Of a stretch of 64,000 nucleotides of DNA, positions 23,086 to 52,084 are shown piece by piece; positions within the stretch are counted from its first letter, which is position 1; each line of letters opens with the position of its first letter. Below the pieces are notes generated by a model that saw nothing but the letters and a program-made list of their open reading frames with translations, searched no databases and was not told where the DNA came from. The translations under genes and the position numbers were made by a program. Source of the stretch: an uncultured Flavobacteriaceae bacterium (GTDB taxonomy: Bacteria > Bacteroidota > Bacteroidia > Flavobacteriales > Flavobacteriaceae); NCBI GenBank assembly GCA_947487895.1, contig CANKYF010000002.1:1-64000 (forward strand), read 5' to 3'.

Positions 23086-23401
23086 TAAGTAGATTGCCTT
23101 ATCGCTGCCTTTGGGTAGAGGAAAGTCCGAACACCATAGTGCAATATAGTGGTTAATGGCCACCAGTTGTGAGACTAGGAAAAGTGCAACAGAAAGTATG
23201 TACAGGTAATGCTGTAGTGAAATCAGGTAAACTCTATATGGTGCAATGTCATGTATACCAACGTCCCGATAGTTATCGGGAAAGGGCTGCACGCTCAATG
23301 TTGGAGGGTAGACAGCTAAAGTGTTCTGGTAACAGTACATTTAGATAAATGATAAGGATCACGCTTTGGCGCGATACAGAATTCGGCTTATAAATTTACT
23401 T
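23086..23401 (+). ncRNA. rnpB: RNase P RNA (class A)
   Basis: About 316 nt; the catalytic RNA that removes 5' leaders from pre-tRNA. The universally conserved core is present: GAGGAAAGTCCGAACACC from 23118 (P4 5' strand/CR I) and ACAGAATTCGGCTTA from 23376 (CR V/P4 3' strand). GAGGGTAGACAG-like sequence lies between. The ends pair as AAGTA/TACTT (P1). A 123-codon antisense ORF across it (22969-23340) is a shadow. A perfect palindrome, TCCCGATA/TATCGGGA (23264-23281), forms one of the internal helices. Confidence 0.96.
23264..23281. repeat. 18-nt palindrome forming a helix inside rnpB
   Basis: TCCCGATA-GT-TATCGGGA, a perfect 8-bp stem in the specificity-domain part of RNase P RNA. From memory, CCCGATA...TATCGGG palindromes are common interspersed repeats in flavobacteria, so this helix may have been supplied by a repeat insertion; that origin is inference. 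Confidence 0.55.
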
Positions 23402-23410
23402 TAAATAATA

Positions 23411-46537: not shown

Positions 46538-47830
46538 TTATTTTAGTAAAAACGATTTCAAATCGTCATAAGTAGAAATTTTAACAGCTACTTTTTTTCT
46601 ACCCATCACTTCTTGTATTTGAGTAGGTAATGGTTGCTCTTCTTTAATAACCTCTTCAACAACATCTAAGAACTTTGTAGGGTGTGCTGTTTCTAAAAAC
46701 ACGCAATGCGCGTTAGGATTGTCTTTTAAATACGCTTTGCTCCCTAGATACCCAACAGCACCATGCGGATCTGCAACATAGTTACAATCGTTATAGATTT
46801 CTAACATGGCATCTTTAGTTTGTTTATCTGTAAACCAATAAGACGACACATTTTCTTTAAGAGTTTCAAATTTGTTTTTATAAATCTCTTGAATTCTAAT
46901 AAAGTTACTAGGCGCTCCAACATCCATAGCATTACTTATCGTTTGAACAGATGGTTTTGGTTCGTATAATGCAGATTCTAAGTAACGTGTTACCACATTA
47001 TTAGCATTGTTAGATGCTATAAAATGCTTTACAGGTAATCCTAATTGTTGAGCCATCATACCTGCACAGATATTCCCAAAATTGCCACTTGGTACAGAGA
47101 ATACAATGTCATCATATTTTTTATATAACTGCTTGTAAGCAAATACAAAATAGAATAACTGTGGTAACCAACGTGCTACGTTAATAGAATTGGCAGAGGT
47201 TAATTGCATCTTGCTGGTTAAACTTTCATCTAAAAAGGCAGTTTTAACCATAGCTTGGCAATCATCAAACGTTCCGTTTACTTCTAAGGCTTCAATATTT
47301 TGACCAAGAGTTGTTAATTGCTTTTCTTGTATATCGCTCACTTTTCCGCTAGGGTAGAGGATCACTACATTTACACCTTTTACACCTAAAAAACCGTTAG
47401 CCACAGCACCGCCAGTATCACCAGACGTAGCCACTAAAACAGTAACTTCGTTATTATTATCTTTATTGAAATAGCCTAAACAGCGTGCCATAAAGCGTGC
47501 ACCAACATCTTTAAATGCCATGGTTGGACCATGAAATAATTCTAATGTCGAAATATTATTATTTAATGGAACTACAGGAAACTCAAAAGACAACGTTTCT
47601 TCAACTATCGTTTTTAAAACGTCTTCTGGAATTTCTGGAGATACAAACTGCTTGATGGTTTCAAAAGCAATTTCAGAATTAGATAATTGATCTAAATTCT
47701 TGAAAAAAGCGTCAGGTAAAGGCGTGATACTTTCTGGAAAGTATAAACCTTTATCTGGTGCTAAACCTTTAACAACTGCATTTTCAAATGTAGTATCTGG
47801 AGCTTGTTTATTTAGAGAATAGTATTTCAT
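46538..47830 (-). CDS. thrC: Threonine synthase
   Basis: 430 residues, PLP-dependent; converts O-phosphohomoserine to threonine. N-terminus MKYYSLNKQAPDTTFENAVV with GLAPDKGLYFPE; the PLP lysine is in GPTMAFKDVGARFMARC; the phosphate-binding loop is VATSGDTGGAVANGF; NSINVARWLPQ and FSVPSGNFGNICAG follow; and the C-terminus has VADPHGAVGYLG and FLETAHPTKF. It is the last gene of the operon, separated from thrB by an inserted four-helix-bundle gene. Confidence 0.97.
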   Translation of the reverse strand: MKYYSLNKQAPDTTFENAVVKGLAPDKGLYFPESITPLPDAFFKNLDQLSNSEIAFETIKQFVSPEIPEDVLKTIVEETLSFEFPVVPLNNNISTLELFHGPTMAFKDVGARFMARCLGYFNKDNNNEVTVLVATSGDTGGAVANGFLGVKGVNVVILYPSGKVSDIQEKQLTTLGQNIEALEVNGTFDDCQAMVKTAFLDESLTSKMQLTSANSINVARWLPQLFYFVFAYKQLYKKYDDIVFSVPSGNFGNICAGMMAQQLGLPVKHFIASNNANNVVTRYLESALYEPKPSVQTISNAMDVGAPSNFIRIQEIYKNKFETLKENVSSYWFTDKQTKDAMLEIYNDCNYVADPHGAVGYLGSKAYLKDNPNAHCVFLETAHPTKFLDVVEEVIKEEQPLPTQIQEVMGRKKVAVKISTYDDLKSFLLK

Positions 47831-47845: not shown

Positions 47846-48289
47846 CAAATGACCGAAGACGGGAGACCAAAAAGAGTAACGAGTCTATCGATTCATTGGT
47901 TTTAATTATTTGATATTTTTTCTAAATGCTAACATCATGTTCATTAAATGATGTGCTTCATTATATAATTGAATAAAATTACTTTTATTAATATAGTTTC
48001 TCTTTTCTGCTTTGAAGAGACAAGTGACAACTTCTGCTAAAGAACGTATGGAATAACCTATAAATTTCTTCTGTTCAGGATTTGACTGACCAATAGAACC
48101 TTCTGATATGTTTAGAGCTACTGAATCTGAAGCTCTTCTAATTTGACTTGATAAATTGAATTTCTCTTTATCAGGAAAAGCATCAGTAATTTTATTAATT
48201 CTTTCTCCAAAGTCCATTGCTTTTTGCCAAATAATTAGTTTTTCAAACTTAAACTTACCTAAGATGTCATTTTGGTCTTCGGTCATTTG
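47846..48289. mobile_element. Inverted-repeat-bounded unit carrying the four-helix-bundle gene
   Basis: CAAATGACCGAAGAC at 47846-47860 is repeated exactly in inverse orientation at 48275-48289. Both copies continue inward to CAAAA, the left with an extra GGGAGAC. The 444-bp unit holds one ORF whose start codon lies within the right repeat (ATGACCGAAGAC), and it sits between thrB and thrC, which are normally contiguous. No transposase and no obvious target-site duplication is seen. Classification as mobile is inference. Confidence 0.5.
47906..48286 (-). CDS. Four-helix-bundle protein (23S rRNA intervening-sequence/S23 family)
   Basis: 126 residues. Motifs of the family: FEKLIIWQKAMDFGERI, FNLSSQIRRASDSVALNISEGSI, YSIRSLAEVVTCLFKAEKRNYI and a last helix. 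These proteins were first noted in intervening sequences of 23S rRNA genes and share a fold with Avd, the accessory protein of diversity-generating retroelements; no reverse transcriptase or template repeat is near. It begins 12 nt after the thrB stop, and its first four codons come from the flanking inverted repeat. It may be co-transcribed with the thr genes only because of where it landed. Confidence 0.9.
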   Translation of the reverse strand: MTEDQNDILGKFKFEKLIIWQKAMDFGERINKITDAFPDKEKFNLSSQIRRASDSVALNISEGSIGQSNPEQKKFIGYSIRSLAEVVTCLFKAEKRNYINKSNFIQLYNEAHHLMNMMLAFRKNIK

Positions 48290-48298
48290 CCTTTGGTC

Positions 48299-49222
48299 TT
48301 ATTGAATTATTTTAATCCCTTCCGTATTAATTTTAGACACGTGCATATCATACTCAATACCTGTTTTTGAATAGATAGCTTCTATGGCTTCCTTAACTTT
48401 TTCTGCACTTTCGATGCCTTTACACAAAGAAAAGATTGAAGGGCCTGAACCAGATATTCCAGAACCTAAGGCCCCAGCTTGAATAGCTGTTTCTTTAACT
48501 TCTTTAAAATGCGGAATGAGTTTGCTTCTATGTGGTTCTACAATGACATCATGCAATGCATTTTGAATCACCTCATAATCACTGGTATGTAAACCATGTA
48601 TTAAACTGCCAAAATTTGCCCATTGCGTAATGGCATCTTGTAAAGCTACTTCTTTTGGTAGTAACCCTCTAGATTCTGATGTTTTTACTTCAATTTGTGG
48701 GTGAATGATAGTAGCATATAAATCTTCAGGTGAAGGAATTTCTAATATTTGCAAAGGAGACACACTTTTTACCAAAGCAAATCCACCAAAAATAGCAGGG
48801 GCTAAGTTATCAGCATGTTCACATTTACTTGCTAATGCTTCTCCTTTCATGGCAAATCCTGTTAGTTGTGTTTTGTTGAAAGGTCTGTTTAACAACTCGT
48901 TCATACCAAACACACTACCAACAGCACTTGCTGCACTACTCCCAATGCCACTACCAGGTTTGATTTTTTTATAGATCTCAATTTCAAAGCCAAAATCTAA
49001 ATCTAAAGCATCATACATAGCTAGAGCAGAAACTCCAGCTACATTTTTTTTAGCTTCATATGGTAAATCAAAGCCTTCAATATTAGTTATTTTAATGCCT
49101 TTGGTTTCTACCTTTCTAACAACCATTTCATCACCAACGCTATCTAAACAGAATCCCATAACATCGAATCCACATGATACGTTAGCTACAGTTGCAGGAG
49201 AAAATATTTTTATTTCGTTCAT
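48299..49222 (-). CDS. thrB: Homoserine kinase
   Basis: 307 residues from ATG 49222 (MNEIKIFSPATVANVSCGFD), the expected GHMP-kinase start; an in-frame ATG 66 nt upstream adds a tail with no family match. The ATP loop is KPGSGIGSSAASAVG (GHMP motif 2), and GALGSGISGSGPSIFSL is motif 3. It phosphorylates homoserine for threonine synthase. It follows thrA by 67 nt. Confidence 0.95.
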   Translation of the reverse strand: MNEIKIFSPATVANVSCGFDVMGFCLDSVGDEMVVRKVETKGIKITNIEGFDLPYEAKKNVAGVSALAMYDALDLDFGFEIEIYKKIKPGSGIGSSAASAVGSVFGMNELLNRPFNKTQLTGFAMKGEALASKCEHADNLAPAIFGGFALVKSVSPLQILEIPSPEDLYATIIHPQIEVKTSESRGLLPKEVALQDAITQWANFGSLIHGLHTSDYEVIQNALHDVIVEPHRSKLIPHFKEVKETAIQAGALGSGISGSGPSIFSLCKGIESAEKVKEAIEAIYSKTGIEYDMHVSKINTEGIKIIQ

Positions 49223-49289
49223 TTTTTCAATTAAATAACTTTCGGCTGCACTAGAACAGGAAATATCACTTTCTTTATGCAGTTTCATC

Positions 49290-51734
49290 TTAATCGTTTC
49301 CTAATCTAATAATATCAGCAAACAATCCAGAGGCGGTTACATCTGCACCGGCTCCAGCTCCTTTAATAATCATAGGTTGTTCTGGGTAACGTTCTGTATA
49401 GAACATGACTATGTTATCACTACCTTCTAAATTATAAAACGGGTGTCCAACTGGTATTTCTTGTAAACTCACACTTGCTTTACCGCTATCAAACTTTGCT
49501 ACATATTTTAATTGACAGTTATTCGCTTTCGCGGAAGCGTATAAAGCTTGATAATGTGCTTCGTCATCAATCAAGGTTTGATAAAAATCATCTACAGTAT
49601 CACTTTTTAATCCAGCTTCAGATAAGAAAGATGTGTTATTAATATCTTCTAAATTCATTTCTACACCACTTTCTCTAGCTAGAATTAAAATCTTTCTAGC
49701 TACGTCAACACCACTTAAATCAATTCTTGGGTCTGGTTCTGTATAACCTTCAGCAGCAGCTTGTTTTACAACATCATAGAATTTAGTAGTATCATTAAAA
49801 TTATTGAATACAAAATTTAAACTACCAGAAAGTACGGCTTGTATTGAGTTGATTTTATCTCCTGAAGCTACCAAGTTACTAAGTGTATCGATTACAGGTA
49901 ACCCTGCACCAACATTAGTTTCAAATAAGAAAGGCGCATTGTATTTAAGAGATAAACGTTTTAATTCTTTATAATTGCTAAATTCACTTGAACAAGCAAT
50001 TTTATTACAAGCTACAACAGAAATACTTTCGCGTAAATACTGTGCATATAAATCTGCTACGTCTTTATTAGCAGTCACATCCACAAAAATACTATTACGT
50101 AGATTTAGATCTTTAGCTTTTTCAAAGAAACCCTGTAAAGAGGCTTGTTCGCCATCTACTAACTGCTCTTTCCACGACTTTAAATCTAAACCTCCTTCAT
50201 TAAAAATCATTTTTCTTGAGTTAGATAATCCAATAACTCTTAAATTGATTTTTAAGTTTTCTTTTAAATATTTACGTTGTTGTTTTATTTGTTCTACCAA
50301 ACGTTCCCCAACATTACCTACACCAGTAATAAATACATTTAACTGCTTAGTTTTTGCTTCAAAAAATTGCTCATGTAATACGTTTAACGCTTTCTTTACA
50401 TCATTTTCATTAATTACTACAGAAATATTCTTTTCTGAAGCCCCTTGAGCTATGGCTCTCACGTTTACATTATTTCTACCTAAAGCACTGAAAAATTTAC
50501 CACTTATACCTTGATGATTTTTCATGTTATCACCAACAAGCGCCACTATAGATAATCCTTCTTCAACTAGAATAGGCTCTATTTTATTAAGCGCAATTTC
50601 GTTTTCAAACGTAGTATCTATGGCTTCTTTCGCAGCATTAGCATCTTTACTTTCAATACCTAAACAAATAGAATGTTCTGAGGATGCTTGTGTAATTAAA
50701 ATAATATTGATTTTCTCTTGAGATAACGTTTCAAATAAACGCTTAGAAAATCCTGGAATACCAACCATTCCACTCCCTGCTAAGGTTAAAAGCGCAATGT
50801 TACCAATATTACTAATACCTTTAACGGGATTATTACCGTTTACAGCTTTATTAGAAATGATAGTACCTGTAGCTTCAGGCTCTAATGTATTTTTTATATG
50901 AATAGGAATTTCAAGATTTAATACCGGTTGTACCGTTGGAGGGTATAATACTTTAGCGCCAAAGTGTGATAACTCCATAGCTTCTTGATATGAAATTTCA
51001 CTAATTGGGTAGGCATGTTTTACCATTTTTGGATTGGTAGTAAACATACCACTAACATCTGTCCAAATCTCTAATTGCTCTACATCTAAAGCTGCAGCAA
51101 TAATAGCAGCTGTAAAATCTGAGCCACCACGACCTAAAGTAGTTTGCTCTCCATTAACAGATTTAGATACAAAACCAGGAAGAATAGTGATTTTCTGGTT
51201 GGCAGATTTAAAATAATCTACAATATTTTTGTTTGTAATATTGTAGTTAACTTCAGCTTTAGTAAAGTTTGAGTTTGTAATGACTAATTCCTGAGAATTC
51301 TTTCTTTCAGTAGATACATTTCTACTTTTCATAGTTTCGGCTATGATGAAAGAAGATAACAACTCTCCAAAACTTACTAATTTATCAGATGTTTTAAGTG
51401 ATAATTCGTTAATTAGAAAAATACCATCTAATAAGTTTTTTAGCTCACTTAATTTTTCCTCTATATAACTAATGACCGAAGTATTATTGTTAGGAATTAA
51501 CTCGGTTACAATATTTAAGTGAATGTCTTTAATTGTATTAAAAACATTTAAGTACTCATCGTCTTTATTTTGTGCTTTTTTACCAGCTAACAATAATTTA
51601 TCTGTAATACCACCAACTGCTGAAACCACACACGCCACAGATCCGCTTTTAGAATATTTTTCTAAAATACTTATGACGTTATTTATGTTTTTTGAAGAAC
51701 CTACAGAAGTCCCTCCAAATTTTAAAACCTTCAT
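49290..51734 (-). CDS. thrA: Bifunctional aspartokinase/homoserine dehydrogenase I
   Basis: 814 residues. Aspartokinase domain 1-~290: MKVLKFGGTSVGSSKNI, LGRGGSDFTAAIIAAAL, DVSGMFTTNP. A regulatory ACT pair lies at ~310-450 (GMVGIPGFSKRLFETL; NVRAIAQGASEKNISVVI), the site of threonine feedback. Homoserine dehydrogenase is ~465-814: FITGVGNVGERLVEQI (NAD(P) site), VACNKIACSS, LFETNVGAGLPVI, VLSGSLNFVFNNF, EPDPRIDLSGVDVARKI. It catalyses the first and third steps from aspartate to threonine and methionine. A palindrome interrupts the C-terminal part (residues ~732-737). It is preceded by a threonine-rich leader ORF. Confidence 0.97.
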   Translation of the reverse strand: MKVLKFGGTSVGSSKNINNVISILEKYSKSGSVACVVSAVGGITDKLLLAGKKAQNKDDEYLNVFNTIKDIHLNIVTELIPNNNTSVISYIEEKLSELKNLLDGIFLINELSLKTSDKLVSFGELLSSFIIAETMKSRNVSTERKNSQELVITNSNFTKAEVNYNITNKNIVDYFKSANQKITILPGFVSKSVNGEQTTLGRGGSDFTAAIIAAALDVEQLEIWTDVSGMFTTNPKMVKHAYPISEISYQEAMELSHFGAKVLYPPTVQPVLNLEIPIHIKNTLEPEATGTIISNKAVNGNNPVKGISNIGNIALLTLAGSGMVGIPGFSKRLFETLSQEKINIILITQASSEHSICLGIESKDANAAKEAIDTTFENEIALNKIEPILVEEGLSIVALVGDNMKNHQGISGKFFSALGRNNVNVRAIAQGASEKNISVVINENDVKKALNVLHEQFFEAKTKQLNVFITGVGNVGERLVEQIKQQRKYLKENLKINLRVIGLSNSRKMIFNEGGLDLKSWKEQLVDGEQASLQGFFEKAKDLNLRNSIFVDVTANKDVADLYAQYLRESISVVACNKIACSSEFSNYKELKRLSLKYNAPFLFETNVGAGLPVIDTLSNLVASGDKINSIQAVLSGSLNFVFNNFNDTTKFYDVVKQAAAEGYTEPDPRIDLSGVDVARKILILARESGVEMNLEDINNTSFLSEAGLKSDTVDDFYQTLIDDEAHYQALYASAKANNCQLKYVAKFDSGKASVSLQEIPVGHPFYNLEGSDNIVMFYTERYPEQPMIIKGAGAGADVTASGLFADIIRLGND
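49524..49539. repeat. Palindrome inside the thrA coding sequence
   Basis: CGCTTTCGCGGAAGCG, a 16-nt palindrome with one mismatched pair, unusually G+C-rich for this window. It encodes SAKA-type codons in the homoserine dehydrogenase part (LYASAKANNCQ). Palindromes of the form CGCTTTCGCGAAAGCG are, to my memory, frequent in flavobacterial genomes both between and within genes. Confidence 0.55.
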
Positions 51735-51819
51735 TTTTTAATGAATTGATAATTGAATAATAATTTTATTAAAAAGTGATTTTTAGAATAAACCACACAA
51801 TAGCCCGAAGTATAAATAT

Positions 51820-51927
51820 TTAACAACCCCAAAGGGTAGTTGTATTTGTAGTAGTACCAACAAAAGAAACAGTGCTCTTAGTTAAAAGAGAACTTGTAAA
51901 TCTATTATTTTGGTCCAAATGATTCAT
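51820..51927 (-). CDS. Threonine-rich leader peptide of the thr operon
   Basis: A 35-codon ORF (ATG 51927, TAA 51820) 85 nt upstream of the thrA start. Nine codons are Thr, six of them in a cluster near the end: VGTTTNTTTLWGC-stop. It begins MNHLDQNNRFTSS. The cluster mixes ACT, ACA and ACC. By analogy with thrL of enterobacteria, ribosome stalling at these codons when charged tRNA-Thr is scarce should alter RNA folding in the leader and raise thrA-thrB-thrC expression. Unlike E. coli thrL there are no Ile codons, so the response would be to threonine only. Confidence 0.72.
   Translation of the reverse strand: MNHLDQNNRFTSSLLTKSTVSFVGTTTNTTTLWGC
51823..51843 (-). promoter_or_regulatory. RNA hairpin over the Thr codons of the leader
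   Basis: ACAAC-(TA)-CCC-TTT-GGG-GTTGT folds as an 8-bp stem with a 2-nt bulge and covers the last Thr codons through the Cys codon. A ribosome paused on the cluster would melt it. A smaller upstream stem is CTCTT/AAGAG (51875-51890). No G+C-rich hairpin with a T run is evident between it and thrA, so the terminator half of a classical attenuator is not seen. Confidence 0.5.
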
Positions 51928-51949
51928 TATTGGCTATAAAAATATTATT

Positions 51950-51957
51950 CAAAAGTA
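51950..51957 (-). promoter_or_regulatory. Candidate -7 box of the thr operon
   Basis: TACTTTTG on the minus strand, exact TAnnTTTG, 22 nt before the leader ATG. No TTG 17-23 nt further upstream; a TTTG lies 11 nt away. The remaining 51958-52084 stretch, including an 11-base homopolymer, holds no gene. Confidence 0.4.
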
Positions 51958-52084
51958 TTACATTTAGCCAAATTAAAAAACTAATATTTTTTTTTTGTGT
52001 TATTCTTAAGCTGAAGCATTTTTATTTTAAGAAATTCAATGTATTCCAAAAAGAATTAGAAAATCAATAAACTAAAAAAGATTA

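Follow-up and report, generated by a model that had tools for sequence, protein, structure and literature searches.

The thr operon of an uncultured marine Flavobacteriaceae bacterium is preceded by a short open reading frame (ORF) that, judged by comparison with related genomes, is a real and widespread Thr leader with an ordinary sensing principle. The unusual part appears to be a conserved module without a normal terminator, which would make the element a variant of ribosome-mediated attenuation. The locus lies in a window of 64,000 nucleotides, the whole stretch of DNA that was analysed (contig CANKYF010000002.1, positions 1 to 64,000).

A threonine-rich leader ORF upstream of thrA

The leader ORF is located on the reverse strand at 51820–51927 and encodes the peptide MNHLDQNNRFTSSLLTKSTVSFVGTTTNTTTLWGC. 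The original prediction described it as a 35-codon ORF with nine Thr codons, a TTTNTTT run near its end and a distance of 85 nt to thrA, all of which was confirmed in the sequence. Six of the nine Thr sit in this run, which covers codons 25–31 (ACT ACT ACA AAT ACA ACT ACC; 51835–51855, reverse strand), and the 85-nt gap separates the leader stop from the thrA ATG at 51734. The ORF is placed between a predicted promoter and the cognate biosynthetic genes thrA and thrB. The promoter candidate TACTTTTG (51950–51957, reverse strand), identified by its sequence and its recurrence in relatives, fits TAnnTTTG, which we take to be the Bacteroidetes-type −7 box, and it is probably the promoter of the leader transcript.

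Downstream, thrA encodes a bifunctional aspartate kinase/homoserine dehydrogenase I (49290–51734; NF006959, 1036.6 bits) and is followed by thrB, encoding homoserine kinase (48299–49288; NF002288 and TIGR00191), and by a putative thrC for threonine synthase (46538–47830), a 430-aa ORF whose identity was read from the ORF; all three lie on the reverse strand. Between thrB and thrC we observed a gene of 126 aa on the same strand (47906–48286) that belongs to the 23S rRNA-intervening sequence protein family (PF05635, 111.7 bits). The window also contains a bacterial RNase P class A RNA at 23086–23406 on the forward strand (RF00010, 191.2 bits). The closest named ThrA relatives are three Seonamhaeicola loci with 89–90% ThrA identity.

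Conservation of the leader among relatives

Leaders were scored by the Thr/Ile content of their last codons with a cut-off of 5, and the antisense strand and Markov shuffles served as controls. Among 80 named ThrA loci, mostly from Flavobacteriaceae, a Thr-rich leader with a score of at least 5 precedes thrA in 63, compared with 0/80 on the antisense strand and 4/400 shuffles. In a family sample with one locus per genus (L155–L238, 84 of 114 ThrA loci), 47/84 loci reach this score on the sense strand versus 0/84 on the antisense strand and 3/420 shuffles. Thirteen of the 84 loci match a named locus exactly over 250 nt, and when such repeats are removed the leader is present in 39/71 sense and 0/71 antisense sequences. 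At the level of the class, the figures are 12/29, 0/29 and 1/145, respectively. The window leader itself scores 6.0, a value equalled by none of the 420 and none of the 400 Markov shuffles of relatives. The counts include five loci, out of 60 fetched, with an unclear thrA start; from the order-level matches, 36 loci were fetched and family f9 (2 genomes) was left out.

The surroundings of the leader recur as well. A type-A hairpin behind an AC/AT codon run was found at 21 of the 29 ThrA loci (L002–L030) of a 59-genome search, and the TAnnTTTG box stands at the chosen spacing from the CCC/GGG hairpin in the window and in 75 of the 80 named loci; the other five (L090, L092, L096, L099 and L105), which do not show this arrangement, were dropped before the counts.

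Within the peptide, conservation is confined to the Thr run. For the 52 ORFs of exactly 35 codons, 86% of residues at codons 25–31 are Thr or Ile (summed from the codon table); Thr is mostly kept at codons 25–27, 30 and 31, while codons 28–29 exchange among Thr, Ile and Asn. The run is preserved through synonymous swaps among ACA, ACT, ACC and ACG together with Thr–Ile exchange, and Ile often joins Thr in relatives, as in TTTIITT or ATTTITTP. The prediction that the leader has no Ile codons thus holds for the window and fails for the relatives, in which Ile is common. An omega-like ratio is 0.71 at codons 21–31, 1.26 at codons 2–20 and 1.43 at codons 32–35; with a whole-peptide ratio of 1.04 there is no purifying selection on the peptide as a whole and no protein-level constraint outside codons 21–31, as expected for a leader peptide. 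At codon 5 the column diversities are 0.21, 0.59 and 0.18 for positions 1, 2 and 3, so that the third-position C is mostly kept while the first two positions vary, which points to a constraint at the RNA level.

Not every relative has the leader; the hairpin-A type occurs in 53 of the 84 loci of the family sample. No leader was found at the six thrA loci fetched from 600-kb genomes, of which there were 19 among the matches and which are presumably endosymbiont-sized, nor at three fetched f15 loci and one f3 locus; in f2, one of two loci has it by rule. Several individual arrangements were also noted. In L019 and L024, thrA directly follows another coding sequence, which reads like the end of a threonine dehydratase, and no leader is seen. 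The leader module of L031, L065, L068 and L155 is ~65–190 nt farther from thrA, as if DNA had been inserted between them. Upstream of thrA in L136, L138 and L146, inspection by eye places the stop codon of a Thr leader inside a hairpin loop; this hairpin is of the ACGGGG/CCCGT type, its G and C sides exchanged compared with hairpin A.

Three hairpins and a motif around the leader end

Hairpin A (CTACCC-TTTG-GGGTTG; 51824–51839, reverse strand) is a core conserved in relatives. The leader stop lies just downstream of it in the window and inside the hairpin in many relatives. Hairpin B (51875–51890, reverse strand) lies within the ORF upstream of the Thr run and was recognized by covariation; it is the top covariation block of the segment scan, holds the second-ranked single pair of the pair analysis (E 2.87 for that pair alone under our null) and is possibly a pause hairpin. 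Hairpin D, GTGGTTTATTCTAAAAATCAC (51776–51796, reverse strand), also identified by covariation, carries no U-tract of terminator quality and follows A at a near-constant spacing of ~40 nt (37–42 nt from the CCC of A). Between A and D lies motif M, which reads roughly CATATCATCCGT across the family. A loose M pattern is present in 131 of 167 loci compared with 15% of shuffles; the window copy (51803–51818, reverse strand) is divergent, TATTTATACTTCGGGC, and does not match the loose pattern.

The original prediction had a hairpin cover the Thr codons. This is roughly right: the conserved core of A spans the final Thr codon and the greater part of the preceding one, and in the window's own fold the hairpin-A stem extends back to the end of codon 27, while a second hairpin upstream ends within the first Thr codons. 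The fold of this Thr-run region in the window is not above chance (z −1.08; 27/200 shuffles equal), and the entire 226-nt leader folds better than chance (z −3.30; 1/200 shuffles equal).

Three alignments were built from relatives: A1 (70 of 76 rows), A3 (48 of 70 rows) and A2 (50 of 74 sequences), the last of which was set aside with D badly aligned; the segment covariation scan used 62 of 76 rows. In the 48-row alignment, four of the six pairs of A are invariant, and both partners change in six of the eight pairs of D. For A and D together, 91.7% of cells are paired and 29 cells carry a two-sided change, which none of 500 shuffles equalled. RNAalifold on 70 rows returned the core of hairpin A and nothing more, and under a phylogenetic null the best D pair has E 0.3, the null being noisy with a maximum above the best observed pair. 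Pairing scores between the two arms of D in the swap tests described below are circular, because the D positions were picked by folding each sequence itself; pair covariation, the segment scan and the 48-row alignment support D independently of such positions. In sum, the three simple hairpins A, B and D stand on covariation and the alignment of relatives. A possible further stem between CCAAAAUA (codons 5–8) and UAUUUUUGG (before the Thr run) is nearly invariant in sequence with weak covariation (0.70), and the long-range stem AUAGCC:GGCUAU of the window fold does not stand out in the covariation scan.

A covariance model of the window clade, which misses distant hairpin-A loci, was searched over 39 genomes. 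It gave one match at E < 0.01 in each of 11 genomes, the next best match having E 0.022. Since all 11 matches adjoin thrA, the A-M-D module looks specific to thr.

Taken together, the comparison of upstream regions of thrA in relatives, which had been proposed as a check, found the small ORF and its Thr enrichment conserved and hairpin D covarying. On this sequence evidence, control of the thr operon by translation of a Thr leader, as originally proposed, gains support from the conserved ORF, its Thr/Ile run and the structured module downstream, and further from relatives that carry the same kind of leader before a classical attenuator.

Intrinsic terminators and two forms of the element

Two scans found no intrinsic terminator between the leader and thrA in the window. 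By a strict rule, a U-tract terminator between hairpin A and thrA is absent from all 152 distinct hairpin-A sequences. Only one of 143 tallied hairpin-A loci is positive by the strict rule, L298, and its terminator lies upstream of its leader; L298 is likewise the sole joint match of hairpin A and strict terminator among the 152 distinct sequences. A lax rule yields terminator-like matches at 36 of 147 hairpin-A loci; in 33 the match falls on hairpin A, where the U-tract is poor. By the same rule, long clean U-tract terminators are found at hisG in 7/7 and at pheA in 6/7. In the same genome, both the hisG leader MTFIQTHHHFHICSQAK and the pheA leader MKTTVLYTYFSFFYFFFSRRNEAMYI are followed by classical U-tract terminators (L242 and L256; these own-genome His and Phe leaders lie at G000:C2 near 175015 and G000:C10 near 127601). 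Because terminators are present at hisG and pheA and none is seen at thr, the source organism seems, by sequence, to use intrinsic attenuators for His and Phe and not visibly for Thr. Upstream of ilvD, two of seven regions (L246 and L249) have a U-tract terminator and a possible Ile/Val-rich leader; the ilvD of the window's own genome (L250) has no leader or terminator by the same rule.

Two exceptions, both outside the strict hairpin-A rule, were found in the family sample. At L194, an A-like hairpin precedes a good U-tract, TTTTATTTTT, and L221, from the window's own family, combines the Thr/Ile leader MRQSNITTTIITSIP with a classical terminator. The expectation of no evident intrinsic terminator is therefore borne out for the window and does not extend to L221 and some other Bacteroidia, which have a classical one. 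A Thr/Ile leader is combined with a strict terminator at 4 of 27 class-level loci (L143, L144, L148 and L150). Family f5 of the same order has both forms: in genus g34 all eight fetched loci are of the hairpin-A type, and in genus g289 all four (L284–L286 and L301) couple a Thr leader to a classical terminator. Reading by eye places an antiterminator strand at the leader end in L143 and the g289 loci.

It is a serious possibility, if somewhat short of an even one, that the Flavobacteriales have a distinct attenuator class in which a Thr/Ile leader is joined to a terminator-less A-M-D module acting through pausing, Rho or a factor that binds M, and that this form was swapped with the classical terminator form, in either direction, between the sister genera g34 and g289.

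Proposed mechanism

As the full explanation we favor a ribosome-mediated attenuator of the thr operon, which we consider probable and which may work through A, D and an alternative helix E. Transcription would start at the presumed TAnnTTTG promoter and the short ORF would be translated, in what we take to be this order of events. By analogy with the classical relatives we name four strands: strand 1 is the 5′ arm of A; strand 2 is the 3′ GGGG arm of A with the next nucleotides, where the leader ends; strands 3 and 4 are the 5′ and 3′ arms of D. Under a shortage of charged tRNA-Thr, or in relatives also of charged tRNA-Ile, the ribosome would stall in the Thr run and cover strand 1; strand 2 would then be free to pair with strand 3 as helix E, D would not form and thrA would be transcribed. 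With ample Thr, the ribosome would reach the stop codon on or next to strand 2, D would form and expression would be cut. We favor polymerase pausing or Rho over intrinsic termination as the means by which D or motif M would act.

Pairing tests of own against swapped segments used 146 rows thinned to 74. Across 16 segment pairings that do not involve D itself, only 2:3 (helix E) is clearly better in its own combination (2/3000 permutations). Without the two strongest clades the value is 22/5000, and in a control with the segment shifted 8 nt further down the signal is gone (1638/5000). The signal weakens on thinning to 70% (34/5000) and 60% identity (63/5000), and the permutations retain some shared ancestry. 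In the 48-row alignment helix E lacks two-sided changes and does not outperform shuffles (320/500). Masked folding of the 74 sequences gives a mean P(D) of 0.86–0.89 in all four ribosome states; with the ribosome over strand 1, the mean equilibrium P(E) is 0.12, and P(E) exceeds 0.3 in 11 of the 74. The same approach applied to the window clade (61 loci) gives a mean P(E) of at most 0.13 with unchanged accessibility of the start site, and for the window itself P(D) is 0.53 without a ribosome and 0.08–0.56 with one, with P(E) at 0.00–0.01. Folding thus gives E little weight and, on average, forms D nearly always; on balance we regard the sensor as near certain and the switch as plausible. Accordingly graded, the leader very likely senses Thr/Ile, as its conservation suggests; the A/E/D switch is weakly supported and offered tentatively; and our confidence in any particular output, whether a pause, Rho or something else, is low.

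Two other pairings were tried and rejected. By eye, the Thr run had seemed to pair with the 5′ arm of D in five loci, but own and swapped segments score the same (−3.60 vs −3.60; 2431/5000 permutations, and 794/3000 in a wider set). For the complementary stretches at the leader start and in the thrA start region, the segment scan found no covariation.

Alternative explanations

That a Thr-rich ORF arose by chance in A+T-rich intergenic DNA and has no regulatory role would fit the missing protein-level constraint at codons 2–20 and the lack of a leader in some relatives. This explanation is refuted, as far as sequence comparison goes, by conservation, and we give it next to no credence: the sense strand has the leader in 63/80 and 39/71 loci against 0/80 and 0/71 for the antisense strand, a covarying hairpin D follows at near-constant spacing, and classical Thr attenuators occupy the same place in related genera. 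Hairpin A might instead be a weak intrinsic terminator with an A+U tract that the ribosome blocks or frees. The lax-rule matches (36/147 hairpin-A loci, 33 at A) and the L194 hairpin followed by TTTTATTTTT speak for this, but a tract such as UAAUUAUAUA is a poor U-tract beside the clean ones of hisG (7/7) and pheA (6/7). The predicted sign would also be wrong, because a ribosome stalled early would leave A free and stop transcription during starvation, and the conserved D and M would stay unexplained; we regard this possibility as quite improbable.

Control at the level of translation, in which translating the leader would alter folding or access of the thrA start or aid re-initiation, seems improbable too, if a little less so. 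It draws on the closeness of the A-M-D module to the thrA start and on the fact that this group relies little on Shine-Dalgarno pairing. Yet masked folding leaves the mean accessibility of the start region at 0.49–0.50 in all states (window, 0.39–0.42), 85 nt is far for re-initiation, and the complementarity between leader start and thrA start is without covariation. A read-out through Rho, in which the leader ribosome would gate the access of Rho to the untranslated stretch past the stop codon, with A, D and M as loading or pausing elements, is a better candidate that we still judge unlikely. Control of Rho by a leader peptide has a precedent in E. coli mgtL and, reportedly, in topAI; a Rho_N match was found in the window's genome, and none of the 152 distinct hairpin-A sequences has a strict U-tract terminator before thrA. 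On the other side, the leader stop is only 85 nt away from thrA and the interval has few C (9), which does not resemble a classical rut site. Our preferred reading remains the ribosome-mediated attenuator, perhaps operating through A, E and D.

With this analysis, the thr operon of a large, mostly marine family gains a probable regulatory element together with its signal. To our knowledge, control after the start of transcription has been little studied in this phylum. Two read-outs behind one sensor in sister genera offer a natural comparison for leader peptides that act without an intrinsic terminator, and motif M is a concrete target.

Comparison with known systems

A 2004 comparative study by Vitreschak and colleagues reportedly mentions attenuators in Bacteroidetes/Chlorobi. 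For F. psychrophilum, a 2021 transcriptome study reports strong signs of attenuation by leader peptides encoded ahead of amino-acid operons, and the 5′ elements that it names as shared with other genera include those of pheA and hisG (PMC9723704); the thr operon is not named in the main-text parts on attenuation of that article. The text of PMC2965389 does not mention Bacteroid, Flavobacteri, threonine or thrA. Among the matches listed from the open-licence literature we found no paper on a Thr leader in Bacteroidota, which is not proof of absence. The original prediction knew of no description of this element in the group; for a flavobacterium, attenuation of amino-acid operons by leader peptides has already been reported in general terms (PMC9723704).

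The E. coli thr leader is a Thr/Ile-rich peptide encoded before thrA. The enterobacterial element (RF00506, Thr_leader) resembles ours in that the pairings 1:2, 2:3 and 3:4 can be assigned, in this order, to either element; the window element differs in its leader sequence and in having no U-tract terminator, and its relatives have motif M. RF00506 gave no match to the window at 51700–52060 up to E 10 and none to four hairpin-A loci at E up to 0.5; L144 (E 0.001) and L284 (E 0.093), both of the classical form, matched it weakly and below the gathering score. The Bacteroid-trp RNA (RF01692) comes from the same phylum and is also a leader-peptide element with the regulatory codons of a short ORF in a hairpin arm, but it has Trp codons, one long hairpin and a conserved AAAAAGGCUUGUC end; it does not match the thr element and is present elsewhere in the window's genome (53.4 bits). 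The his and phe leaders of flavobacteria, seen in the same genome, likewise have, upstream of the operon, a short ORF enriched in the cognate amino acid, and differ from thr by their classical U-tract terminators. The classical Thr attenuators of Bacteroidia (L143, L144, L148, L150, g289 and L221) belong to the same class, g289 to the same order and L221 to the same family, and have a Thr/Ile leader directly before thrA. In these forms the leader is followed by a strict U-tract terminator, and hairpin A is absent by rule; none of the distinct hairpin-A sequences has such a terminator downstream.
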